Positions 745-5,574 of a stretch of DNA of 35,167 nt are shown piece after piece. Every line of letters begins with the position of its first letter. Position 1 is the stretch's first letter. Origin of the DNA: Saprospiraceae bacterium (GTDB lineage: Bacteria > Bacteroidota > Bacteroidia > Chitinophagales > Saprospiraceae); the NCBI GenBank assembly GCA_019634275.1, contig JAHQVP010000251.1, positions 1 to 35,167 of the forward strand, written 5' to 3'. Below the pieces are notes generated by a model. It was given only the letters and a program-made list of their open reading frames with translations. It did no database searches and was not told the DNA's origin. The position numbers and the translations under genes are program-made.

Positions 745-2235
745 ATGCATGATTCGATAAAAGCACACCTCCTCCATGGTGCATCTGACCAGGACACTGA
801 CATCAGGCTTACTGAGATGGCCGACACCTTTGGGATTGAAACCAATGAAGGCATGATATGGAAGTTGGCATTTGCTCAGGAAGTGCTTTCGAAGGGGGCT
901 CAAATGCTATCAAAGGTGGAGACACCTGCCTCAATTGCACTTGCAGACAAAACCCCAAATTGCAGTTGGGCAGCGGCTCAAATAATCACCAGGCTAGCCG
1001 AAGAGCGCAAGAAAGACACCCTCCGTGAGGCGCTTCGTATCGTCGCCTATACCAACAGGCACATCCATCCGCTTGCCCTGCCTGCAATACTCTCCTCACT
1101 GCAGCATGACTATCCCTTCTATCCTGATTTGCGAAAAACAATGGGCTCCCGAGCCGACTGGTTAAGTAAGCAAAATCAAAAATGGACCTGGTGGTTGGAC
1201 TCCAACTCACCCATTGGCGAAGATGATGCATTTGCACAGTGGTGGCCCAAGTACATCATGCAGTTCAGTGTCTCGGCAGAACAGGCCAATGCCGCCATCA
1301 TCGAAAAACTAGATGTGCTGGACACCACCGCAAAACTAAAATTGGCTGGGTGGTTGAACCAGCATCCCGACGAAAGCAACCTTGCGGTGCTGCCCAGATT
1401 ACTGCCCAGTCGCTCTGGCAAACTGCGACGAGCCGTACTTAATGCTGTGCTAAGGAATCCACAAAACCCTCATACCAAAGAAATCGAATCGTTTGCCCTT
1501 CCTCGTCTGCAGGGCGCCATTGCGCAAAGCCAGACCACTCTGAACTTTTCTCCCAGCAACAGTGCTGTTGTCACAGGCATCACGTTTAAACTTTCGGACA
1601 TTGAGCTGTATTCCGAGTATTTTTCCAATCCACAGTGGCGATTGTTCTGCATGGTCGCGCCTGCTAAGTATTTGGAGGATCCTTCGTCTGACTTTGTGGT
1701 CACGTCCTTAATGGAGAATGAAGGGTTAGAAAGGCTGGCACAGATGGTCATCTGTGGAGCTTCGCATCATAATGACCAAGACCTGGTCATGGCACTTTTA
1801 GAAACCTATTTGCGTCTCTATCCTGCGGGCAACACCGTAGGTCTGCAAATTCAACCCTTGACTCAAAGTTTAAATACCGATCAATTGCGCACTTGCATTG
1901 GATCTCTACTCAAGACTCCTTCTCGTTTCTTTGAAAAACTTGCACTTGTACTGCATGGCAACACTCCGTACGTTAGTCGTTCCCTCTCTGAAGCCATCAT
2001 CGAACGCATCCATGAAGCAACCATCTCCGATTTGCCCTTCAACGAAATCCAACAACTGAACCGGTTACTGCCCACGCTGGGCAACCGCCTGGATCCCCGC
2101 ATCTTTCCAAAACTTAGATCTTTGTGGTCGAACGACTACTATATGGGAGTTTTAACCAAGAACATCAACATATTTCACCAAACCATGGAGCAACGTCATC
2201 GACTCTTGGAAAGCATAGCACATAGTTATGAGTAA
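745..2235 (+). CDS. DUF5691-like helical-repeat protein, first gene of the MoxR/DUF5682 operon
   Basis: 496-aa ORF rich in helical-repeat-like segments (e.g. [44 protein letters not shown]). Its position just upstream of a MoxR AAA ATPase and a DUF5682-like gene matches the known DUF5691-AAA-DUF5682 gene order. Confidence 0.7.
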
Positions 2236-3319
2236 GAAAAAAGCCATCCTCCGTGCTGCAGCCGAGGAAACCTTTGCTCAGGAACTCAAGAGCATCAAAG
2301 CCGAAGATAAGGGCGAGAAGCCCAGCAATTGGGAGCTTTCTCCCCAGGGTGTATTGCTCTACATTATGGGTGGAAAGACAAAGAAAGGAAAACCCATTAC
2401 CCCAAAGTATTTTGGACAACGACGTTTGGTGGAGCTGTCTATCGCCACCCTGCTGACCGACCGAGCACTCTTGCTCATTGGCATACCCGGCACTGCCAAG
2501 ACCTGGCTTTCGGAGCACCTGGCAGCAGCTATATCTGGGAATTCTAGACTGCTGGTACAAGGAACTTCAGGGGCTGGCGAGGACACCATACGCTATGGGT
2601 GGAATTATGCCAAATTGCTGCAAGACGGCCCTTCACAAGAGGCGCTGGTCGAAAGCCCTGTGATGGCGGCGATGAAAACAGGTAAGCTGGTACGTATCGA
2701 GGAGCTCACCAGGATACCATCAGATATTCAAGATGGGTTAATCACCATTCTATCAGAAAAACAACTTCCGATAGCCGAACTTAACACCGCTGTGCGAGCA
2801 GTAGAAGGCTTTAATGTCATTGCCACTGCCAATGACAAAGACCGGGGTGTGCATGAGCTTTCATCCGCCTTGCGCCGTCGGTTTAACACAGTCCGCTTAC
2901 CATTGCCGGCCACGCTTGACGAAGAAGTGGAAATTGTGCACTATCGAATCAAACAAACTCAGAAAGCGACAGACCTAAAAGCCATAAAAGAGGAAGACAT
3001 CCGACAACTAATCACCGTTTTTAGAGAGCTCCGTAATGGGCATACCTTAGAAAAGGATCAAAAACTCAAAGTACCCACATCCACCTTGAGTACGGCCGAA
3101 GCGATTTCGGCAATAAACAATTGCATCAGCCTGCAAGTCCATTTTGGCCAGGATAAAGGAGCGCAAGACATGTTGGCCGAAAGCATCGTCTCCAGCGTAA
3201 TCAAAGAAGATGCCCATGACCGCTTGGTATTGCAGGAGTATTTGGAAGCGGTAATGAAGATGCGTAAGGACTGGAAAGGCCTTTACCATGCATGCAAGTC
3301 TATCATCGATCGTGGGTAA
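2228..3319 (+). CDS. MoxR-family AAA+ ATPase (YehL-like)
   Basis: Walker A LLIGIPGTAKTWLSEHL; Walker B-like KLVRIEELTRIPSDIQDGLITILSEK; sensor 1 FNVIATANDKDRGVHELSSALRRRF. Start overlaps the previous stop (ATGAGTAA). Confidence 0.9.
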   Translation: MSKKKAILRAAAEETFAQELKSIKAEDKGEKPSNWELSPQGVLLYIMGGKTKKGKPITPKYFGQRRLVELSIATLLTDRALLLIGIPGTAKTWLSEHLAAAISGNSRLLVQGTSGAGEDTIRYGWNYAKLLQDGPSQEALVESPVMAAMKTGKLVRIEELTRIPSDIQDGLITILSEKQLPIAELNTAVRAVEGFNVIATANDKDRGVHELSSALRRRFNTVRLPLPATLDEEVEIVHYRIKQTQKATDLKAIKEEDIRQLITVFRELRNGHTLEKDQKLKVPTSTLSTAEAISAINNCISLQVHFGQDKGAQDMLAESIVSSVIKEDAHDRLVLQEYLEAVMKMRKDWKGLYHACKSIIDRG

Positions 3320-5574
3320 GCAATCTGAGTAAAACCTCTGTGAAGACGGCAAATCAGGAAGTACGCTTGTTTGGAATTCGACATCATGGTGCCGGATCTG
3401 CCCGGAATCTCATGGCTGCCCTTGATTTTTTTGATCCTCAGGCAATCCTGATTGAAGGCCCACATGATTGTCAGCATTTGATTCAACACGTGGCCGGTCA
3501 AAATCTAAGCCCGCCAGTGGCCATGATGGTGTACAGCAATTCCGATCATGCCAAATATGCGTATTACCCCTTTACCTCATTCTCACCAGAATGGCACGCC
3601 ATGCACTGGGGGAATGAACGAAAGAAGATCATTCGATTTATCGATCTGCCGCATGGGCGTATGTTGTCTCTAAGAGAAAAGAAAGTCAAAGAGAATAACG
3701 GTACGGGGCTGGTTGCAGACCCATTTCAGTACCTGGCCGAAATAGCTGGTTATACCGATGCAGAAGCCTGGTGGGACGACTACATTGAGCAGCAACATGA
3801 CCCTCATACGGTCTTCGAAGTCGTGAGCGATCTCATGGTCCAGCTTCGCAAGTCATCCACATTCGAGCATCAGACCAACCATATTCGGGAGGCACATATG
3901 CGGAGCGAATTGCGAAAAGCACTTAAGGAGGGCCATGAACGCGTGGCCGTTGTGTGCGGGGCCTGGCATGTTCCAGCGCTCAAGCATTTGGCCAATTATT
4001 CCTCAACCAAGGATGATAAACAGTGGAAATCCAGTCGAATGGAAAGAACTTCGGCCTCATGGGTTCCCTGGTCGTACGGACGCATTGCCAAACATTCGGG
4101 CTACGGCGCAGGGGTAGTTTCTCCATTCTGGTACGAAGCGCTGTTCGAAGACCCAGACAAGGCAGTGGCCAGATGGATGAGCAGAGCGGCCAAAGAGACA
4201 CGTCATTTGGGTTGGCAAAGCTCATCTGCAGATGCCATCGAAGCCGGACGATTGGTGCACGCACTCACGGCCATTCGAAAAAAGAACCGTCCCGGCATTT
4301 CCGAACTATTTGACGCCATGGCCACCGTCTTTTGTCATGGGGACGATGAGCTGCTAGAGAGATTACGAAAACGTCTCTTGGAAGGGGAAAAAGTAGGATC
4401 GGTAGACCCCAGTGTTTCGATGGTACCATTGCAGCGTGATATTGAAAAACAGATCAAGGCATGTCGTCTTAGCAAAGCCTGGGAATCTTCCCATCCAGTG
4501 GATCGGCAACTTGACATACGAAAAGCGAGCCACCTGCGAATCAGTCAATTGCTGCATCGGCTGACACTATTGGGCATACCTTGGGGGGTCGAGATGCCAC
4601 TGGAACACCACTCGTATGGTCAGTTTCATGAAGCCTGGTCCCTTAAGTGGTTTCCTGATTTTCAAATACAAATTATTGAAGCCAGCCTGTACGGCAACAC
4701 CATTGAAGAAGCCAGCTTTGGTTTCGTCACGCATCATTTGGAGCAATCCAATCCACCGTTGGATCAAACGGCAGCGCTGTTGCTGCGCGTTTTGAAAGCG
4801 GATCTTCGCAAACTCATTATGCCCCTTTGTGAATCGCTTTCTCGACACCTGGCTACGCAGCAAGATGTTCAGCTTTTGTTAGCCTTAGCACCCATGTTGG
4901 TCAATGCCACTCGCTACGGCACCACAAGGAAGATGGATACTGCCGGCATCAGAGAAGTACTCGCTCAGCTAATGCCCAGGATAACATTCGCTCTGCCCGG
5001 CGAAGTCAAAAATATCAGCGATGAGGTGGCGCAATCACTATATCCGGACATGGCCAAACTGGATGAGGCGCTGAAACGAGGAGGTGATCCCATTTTCAAT
5101 GATGGGTGGGTCCAGGCGATGTTGACCATCATGGAGTCCAATGAGGTCCACGGTCTGATGAAGGGCGCCATTCTGCGGTCCCTTTTTGATCGGAGAGAAT
5201 ACTCCCATGCGTTAACTGCTAGTTCCCTTCAATACGAACTGAGTCGAAAGGGTGATCCCATGTACGCATTGCAATTTATCGAGAGCTTTTTGAAGGATGG
5301 AGGAAGCATCCTAATTCATCATGGCCCTTTACGAAAAGCTCTGGACTCCTGGGTGACGTCGCTCACAGAAGACTACTTTATGGACTACCTGGTTTTGCTG
5401 CGGCGTACTTTTAGCCACCTCTCCCAAAGCGAAAAAGAAAACCTCTTTTTACTGCTAAATCGTGCAGAAATTAGGCAAGAAGAAGCACCAGCAGAAGCAC
5501 TGGCAACCGAACGAAAGCAGCTTCTCCAAGGTGCCCTTGTACGCCTCTTAGGGGAAATTGATGAAATGAAATGA
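3292..5574 (+). CDS. DUF5682 family protein with TraB/TIKI/EreA-like motifs
   Basis: 760 aa; N-terminal VRLFGIRHHGAGSARNLMAALDFFDPQAILIEGPHDCQHLI and internal RVAVVCGAWHVPALKHL. Overlaps the MoxR gene by 28 nt; an alternative GTG start exists at 3340. Confidence 0.8.
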   Translation: MQVYHRSWVSNLSKTSVKTANQEVRLFGIRHHGAGSARNLMAALDFFDPQAILIEGPHDCQHLIQHVAGQNLSPPVAMMVYSNSDHAKYAYYPFTSFSPEWHAMHWGNERKKIIRFIDLPHGRMLSLREKKVKENNGTGLVADPFQYLAEIAGYTDAEAWWDDYIEQQHDPHTVFEVVSDLMVQLRKSSTFEHQTNHIREAHMRSELRKALKEGHERVAVVCGAWHVPALKHLANYSSTKDDKQWKSSRMERTSASWVPWSYGRIAKHSGYGAGVVSPFWYEALFEDPDKAVARWMSRAAKETRHLGWQSSSADAIEAGRLVHALTAIRKKNRPGISELFDAMATVFCHGDDELLERLRKRLLEGEKVGSVDPSVSMVPLQRDIEKQIKACRLSKAWESSHPVDRQLDIRKASHLRISQLLHRLTLLGIPWGVEMPLEHHSYGQFHEAWSLKWFPDFQIQIIEASLYGNTIEEASFGFVTHHLEQSNPPLDQTAALLLRVLKADLRKLIMPLCESLSRHLATQQDVQLLLALAPMLVNATRYGTTRKMDTAGIREVLAQLMPRITFALPGEVKNISDEVAQSLYPDMAKLDEALKRGGDPIFNDGWVQAMLTIMESNEVHGLMKGAILRSLFDRREYSHALTASSLQYELSRKGDPMYALQFIESFLKDGGSILIHHGPLRKALDSWVTSLTEDYFMDYLVLLRRTFSHLSQSEKENLFLLLNRAEIRQEEAPAEALATERKQLLQGALVRLLGEIDEMK

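Follow-up and report, generated by a model that had tools for sequence, protein, structure and literature searches.

A five-gene MoxR–VWA gene set, scattered yet retained in Saprospiraceae, with a DUF5682 protein as candidate target

The stretch of DNA analysed here, the window, is a 35-kb contig of a Saprospiraceae bacterium (35,167 nucleotides; assembly GCA_019634275.1, contig JAHQVP010000251.1) that carries at positions 745-5574 three consecutive genes for a DUF5691 protein, a MoxR-family AAA+ ATPase and a DUF5682 protein. These genes are read here, with a probability of about 60%, as the retained central block of a five-gene system whose other members, a VWA-domain protein and probably a SWIM-family protein, are now encoded elsewhere, and in which the MoxR-VWA pair remodels the DUF5682 protein. 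An initial annotation, made from the sequence alone, had proposed either a minimal form in which the DUF5691 and DUF5682 proteins are the sole local clients of the ATPase, or a VWA gene at another site. The second alternative proved correct, as a CoxE/YehP-type VWA gene is present on two other contigs (C257 and C103) of the same assembly.

The wider distribution of the system was examined by scanning 84,980 species genomes with an alignment of DUF5682 proteins as the query; a single DUF5682 protein used as query matched nothing in the contigs. At least 583 stretches encoding a relative were recovered, and the best 80 were kept. The full set of five genes is found in 38 of the 80 loci, nearly always in the order SWIM-DUF5691-MoxR-DUF5682-VWA and on one strand, and complete loci occur in the Bacteroidota, Cyanobacteriota, Actinomycetota, Planctomycetota, Chloroflexota, Acidobacteriota, Verrucomicrobiota, Deinococcota, and Pseudomonadota. 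This arrangement is the ancestral-looking form of the unit. In four loci from the Actinomycetota, Planctomycetota, and Chloroflexota (L190, L206, L211, and L226) a single open reading frame (ORF) contains the profile matches to both SWIM and DUF5691, which suggests a gene fusion. No sixth gene recurs around the 32 complete loci with flanks on both sides, and the target of the machine is therefore probably one of the five proteins. The initial annotation would have been undermined by a VWA gene in the operon of close relatives combined with a local deletion here. Much of this is the case: relatives such as locus L199 have the five genes in one run, and in the window's genome that run has been broken rather than the gene lost.

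No VWA gene is found anywhere in the 35-kb window, which corresponds to one complete contig (C235) of an assembly with 368 contigs and a completeness of 89.8%. Pfam VWA_CoxE identifies two genes in the assembly. One of them, lying at the first base of contig C103, matches a partner profile built from VWA genes within complete clusters (E 1e-124, profile positions 120-376); the first third of the profile, absent there, is matched by the end of contig C257 (positions 7-127). Because the two contig ends share an exact 26-bp overlap inside the VWA gene and the reading frame continues across it, this is one full-length VWA gene cut in two by the assembly. Its metal ion-dependent adhesion site (MIDAS) motifs are intact (DQSAS, GGGTD, and ISD), and over 245 residues its product has 36% identity to E. 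coli YehP. The gene is flanked by rfbA and a gene for a small membrane protein, so that it stands alone, unlinked to the operon. Misbinning of C103 and C257 is unlikely, as their GC contents (0.471 and 0.473) are close to that of the window (0.478) and the tetranucleotide correlation is 0.94-0.95. The second CoxE-type VWA gene, on contig C70, was rejected as the partner since it matches Pfam VWA_CoxE and not the partner profile. At that locus (L067, G000:C70) it spans approximately 8297-9559 and overlaps the end of a leuA-like gene, with no partner-type MoxR match at the locus.

The five genes co-occur to a high degree. Among 101 relatives, DUF5682 and this MoxR type are found in identical sets of 37 genomes; SWIM is present in 36 of the 37, the window's genome being the sole gap, VWA in 34, and DUF5691 in 33. 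None of the MoxR type, SWIM, VWA, or DUF5691 occurs without DUF5682 in any of the 101. An even sample of 393 genomes from the phylum contains eight with DUF5682, and the same eight have the VWA gene (8/8). A VWA-free minimal machine, with MoxR acting on the DUF5691 and DUF5682 proteins, would fit both the absence of a VWA gene from the 35-kb contig and the repetition of the three-gene block in nine genomes of the family. It is nevertheless very improbable: this assembly does contain a VWA gene, and VWA co-occurs with DUF5682 in the relatives and in the phylum sample, which contradicts the idea of two local proteins as sole clients; the three DUF5682-bearing relatives with no VWA match have assemblies fragmented into 630-840 contigs.

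In this Saprospiraceae-like family the genes of the machine are scattered round the chromosome yet almost never lost. With S for SWIM, H for DUF5691, M for MoxR, D for DUF5682, and V for VWA, all grades of linkage can be listed: SHMDV in genome G006, SHMD in G088, SHM in G057, HMD in nine genomes including that of the window, MD, HM, or SH in other relatives, and all genes apart in more than 10 genomes. Linked groups on one strand are sub-strings of S-H-M-D-V; in G055, G007, and G024 the VWA gene adjoins another member in changed orientation. Draft contigs may overstate some of the separations, although G057, assembled in 2 contigs, still has members more than 100 kb apart. The order DUF5691-MoxR-DUF5682 is found at loci L158 and L160 as well as in the nine family genomes, and because it is repeated in this way the three-gene arrangement is more than chance. 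In a tree of DUF5682 proteins the window is placed beside L158, a locus that also carries the three-gene block; both belong to a Bacteroidota clade (56 rows) whose genes are mostly scattered, and the complete five-gene locus L199 is nested within this scattered-gene clade. The complete locus of G006, like one of two sets in G036, belongs to another clade that keeps the operon, and neither is therefore a nearest relative. The simplest reading of this tree would be that an ancestral operon broke up several times independently. The two sets of G036 (loci L033, L046, L139, and L142) come from two DUF5682 clades, one set being partly linked and the other scattered. Loci from Nostocaceae-type cyanobacteria, Acaryochloris, and Hymenobacter (L182, L229, L225, and L202) encode DUF5682 with the other four genes not nearby, some of these loci being cut by contig ends, and operon break-up seems not to be confined to the Saprospiraceae.

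The nearest named relative is probably the yehL-yehM-yehP-yehQ cluster of E. coli K-12, a kinship that had been recognized at the outset and is upheld by the identities of MoxR to YehL (36%), DUF5682 to YehM (26%), and VWA to YehP (36%). YehL is one of seven MoxR subfamilies. As in E. coli, the DUF5682 (YehM) gene of the window directly follows the ATPase gene, and a YehP-type VWA gene is present in the genome. E. coli differs in having its four yeh genes in one run and in lacking DUF5691 (a control result), and YehQ, which has a SWIM finger, resembles the Bacteroidota SWIM protein at the finger only, if at all. In the window's genome, unlike yehLMPQ, the VWA gene is unlinked and SWIM was not found, neither being on the window contig. 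In the searchable literature no paper was found on the function of yehLMPQ and none that names DUF5682 or DUF5691, in agreement with the initial description of this cluster class as poorly described. The E. coli MoxR proteins are two, RavA and YehL (PMC3893208).

Known machines built from a MoxR ATPase and a VWA protein offer a model for how the system may work. NorQ-NorD, a remodelling machine composed of a MoxR AAA+ hexamer and a VWA protein, inserts iron into nitric oxide reductase (PMC13036017, PMC9976466); in the cryo-electron microscopy model the ring twists and stretches the linker of the VWA protein, allowing metal to enter the target (PMC13036017). RavA-ViaA, likewise a MoxR ATPase with a VWA protein, has Frd and Nuo as clients in E. 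coli (PMC3893208). By analogy, the MoxR protein of the window would form an AAA+ ring and pair with the VWA protein, whose MIDAS is intact, as an ATP-driven remodeller. The DUF5682 protein would be the dedicated target enzyme, which the pair may fold, load with metal, or activate, and among the five proteins it is the best candidate for that part. DUF5691 may serve as a helical-repeat scaffold or adaptor, and the zinc-binding SWIM protein, which sometimes lacks the SWIM domain, as a further adaptor or sensor. Linkage would not be required for such a machine, so that its parts could be expressed from separate sites. The parallels have their limits: the nitric oxide reductase client of NorQ-NorD lies outside a unit of this type, and here three more conserved proteins accompany the MoxR-VWA pair, while RavA belongs to another MoxR subfamily and the linked ravA-viaA genes have no DUF5682, DUF5691, or SWIM partner.

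A MoxR and vWA core is also shared by the vWA-MoxR ternary conflict systems, which add a third component (VMAP, iSTAND, FtsH, or a beta-propeller; PMC7159879). It is quite unlikely that the window encodes a conflict or anti-phage system of this type. Its two core partners are the same and the ATPase does score weakly against bpMoxR, at 24.8 bits, which is below the cut-off of 27. The operon contains none of the published ternary third components or effectors (PMC7159879), no variable effector genes recur beside the unit, and PADLOC defence models gave no match of weight, the best being E 0.0029 over 29 residues of a P-loop.

The DUF5682 protein is a member of the YehM family (PF18934, 659 bits; cut-off 26), encoded at 3340-5574 on the plus strand as 744 residues from a probable GTG start. 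Its confident AlphaFold2 (AF2) model (predicted local distance difference test, pLDDT, 88.5; predicted TM-score, pTM, 0.83) comprises an N-terminal alpha/beta domain of residues 1-251 (3340-4092), the putative enzyme domain, and a mostly alpha-helical, solenoid-like C-terminal region (4093-5571). An alignment of 57 diverse DUF5682 members contains invariant polar residues at R14, H15, H16, E39, E84, D102, R183, E184, R188, C206, and H210. They include the invariant RHH motif of GIRHHG (3379-3387), Glu39 of LIEG (3454-3456), and the REAxMR (3886-3903) and CGAWH (3955-3969) motifs. In the model these residues sit at or just past strands, or on the helix preceding a later strand. Because they cluster at strand ends of the alpha/beta domain, DUF5682 looks like an enzyme, with an active-site-like alpha/beta domain mounted on a helical solenoid. 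The same placement argues against a possible, though rather doubtful, alternative in which DUF5682 is a targeting adaptor and the client of the MoxR-VWA pair is an unlinked housekeeping complex. That alternative draws on the absence of a conserved client gene beside the five-gene unit, on the long modelled solenoid, which would suit protein binding, and on the precedent of RavA-ViaA for unlinked clients (PMC3893208).

The TraB/TIKI superfamily (TraB, Tiki, EreA/Bcr135, and ChaN) is a possible affiliation of the N-terminal domain of DUF5682, which appears to share with it an alpha/beta core and the order of motifs, GxxH - E - R..(M) - GxxH. This guess predates the fold searches. A Foldseek search of the viral fold library BFVD, the last to be searched, placed a TraB family protein on top (probability 1.00, E 2.7e-3, TMt 0.47), and for this reason the fold kinship is kept as a lead, not a result. 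Active members of the superfamily use two histidines and two glutamates (PMC6254334). DUF5682 departs from this set in having two histidines, one glutamate, and a basic residue, Arg14 taking the place of the first glutamate in an alignment made by eye. A DNA pattern for TraB proper, run on viral contigs, yielded no usable TraB protein.

Several points weigh against the preferred reading, in which the MoxR-VWA pair of a dispersed five-gene system remodels DUF5682. Both the enzymatic nature of DUF5682 and its role as client are inferred. A sequence search of the PDB found no match, and the whole-chain fold search of DUF5682 of the PDB gave no significant match, helical-repeat proteins swamping the list. 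In a Pfam scan of the 57 members at E values up to 10, TraB is absent among the 25 commonest families. The comparison of DUF5682 with 30 GumN-type TraB proteins by hhalign gave scores inside the column-shuffled null at all settings, a negative profile-profile result for this branch of the superfamily. The Fisher values calculated for co-occurrence overstate independence, since the compared genomes are kin. E. coli DGF-298 lives without yehLMPQ (PMC10652928), which makes the yeh function dispensable in the laboratory. Finally, no SWIM gene was found in the window's genome with Pfam, with a single protein, or with a profile that included the protein of the same genus.

The missing SWIM gene is not evidence of loss, because about 10% of the genome is absent from the assembly. 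The proposed whole-genome search for a CoxE-type VWA or a SWIM gene succeeded for the former and not for the latter. A SWIM-family gene is present in a genome of the same genus (G001), where its product, like that of several other relatives, is shorter and lacks the SWIM finger. These shortened proteins (approximately 312-328 residues; L138:3450-4397 in G001, and L155, L103, L102, L149, L151, and L106) have lost the N-terminal finger and kept the rest, and since several relatives keep the protein in this form the finger is inessential to the gene set. The loss of the SWIM domain from the G001 protein, together with the failure to find SWIM in the window's genome and the long branch of its DUF5682 protein in the tree (0.91), could be taken to mean that the lineage is losing the system, SWIM first. 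Decay of this kind is unlikely where the catalytic motifs are all intact, the frames open, and the VWA MIDAS preserved, in an assembly just 89.8% complete.

The remaining two proteins of the block also belong to the families first assigned to them, their Pfam scores lying well over the cut-offs, as does that of DUF5682; the profile searches, whose failure would have counted against the assignment, did not fail. The DUF5691 protein (745-2235, plus strand, 496 residues; PF18944, 88 bits, cut-off 27) has an AF2 model with a pLDDT of 80 and helix almost throughout. Its best Foldseek matches are importin-alpha/ARM repeats, with a probability of 1.00 but an E value of 1.7e-3 and low TM, and it is predicted to be an all-helical ARM/HEAT-like repeat scaffold. 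The MoxR-family ATPase (2228-3319, plus strand, 363 residues; AAA_5, 118 bits) is assigned to the YehL type by comparison with E. coli YehL, with which it shares 36% identity across 355 residues (E 7e-70). The motif set of an active AAA+ protein is complete, with the MoxR motifs Walker A GIPGTAKT (2480-2503), sensor 1 IATAN (2819-2833), and arginine finger RRRF (2873-2884), and a Walker B-like RIEELTR (2693-2713) whose counterpart in E. coli YehL is RFEEITR. At 3078-3110 a conserved STLSTAEAI, identified by eye, lacks an arginine at the usual MoxR sensor 2 arginine site.

The ORF coordinates (745-2235, 2228-3319, and 3292-5574, the last of 760 residues) are all on the plus strand and agree with the initial description of three co-directional genes in this order between a divergent atpD (minus strand, start near 630) and a convergent scpA (5624-6385, minus strand). 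Of the two gene overlaps described there, that of 8 nt between the DUF5691 and MoxR genes is exact (ATGAGTAA, 2228-2235, plus strand); the corresponding junction in G001 is a 4-nt ATGA overlap. The second, of 28 nt, is doubtful because none of the relatives reaches the ATG at 3292, the first 16 residues of that reading matching 0 of 26 in the alignment, and because the DUF5682 protein of G001 starts near GIRHHG, a few codons upstream of GIRHH, at a TAATG junction with MoxR. The true start is probably the GTG at 3340, which would leave a 20-nt gap after the MoxR gene. In the gap shared by atpD and the three-gene operon, the sequence TATCTTTG (670-677, minus strand) lies upstream of atpD and fits the Bacteroidota -7 consensus TAnnTTTG. 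Farther along the window, 9326-12376 on the minus strand encodes a DnaE-type DNA polymerase III alpha subunit of 1016 residues, shorter than the usual replicative form and possibly a second, accessory DnaE.

Although linkage no longer benefits them, the genes are still retained together in these genomes, and computationally this argues strongly for joint action of their products. A broader proposal is advanced tentatively and is held to be less than probable: that these genes specify a widespread and hitherto undescribed system of five parts that uses ATP to activate a new TraB/TIKI-like hydrolase class (DUF5682), the enzyme being switched on or loaded by a dedicated MoxR-VWA machine with the help of a helical-repeat scaffold and a zinc-finger sensor, and that the system would have survived as an obligate set while its operon was repeatedly dismantled, above all in the Saprospiraceae and, it seems, in some cyanobacteria and Hymenobacter as well. 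With the five genes defined, their co-occurrence almost perfect, and invariant residues identified, the DUF labels become testable parts: the machine with its VWA arm, the putative target enzyme, and two proteins in accessory roles. In this one family the dismantled operon constitutes a natural experiment.

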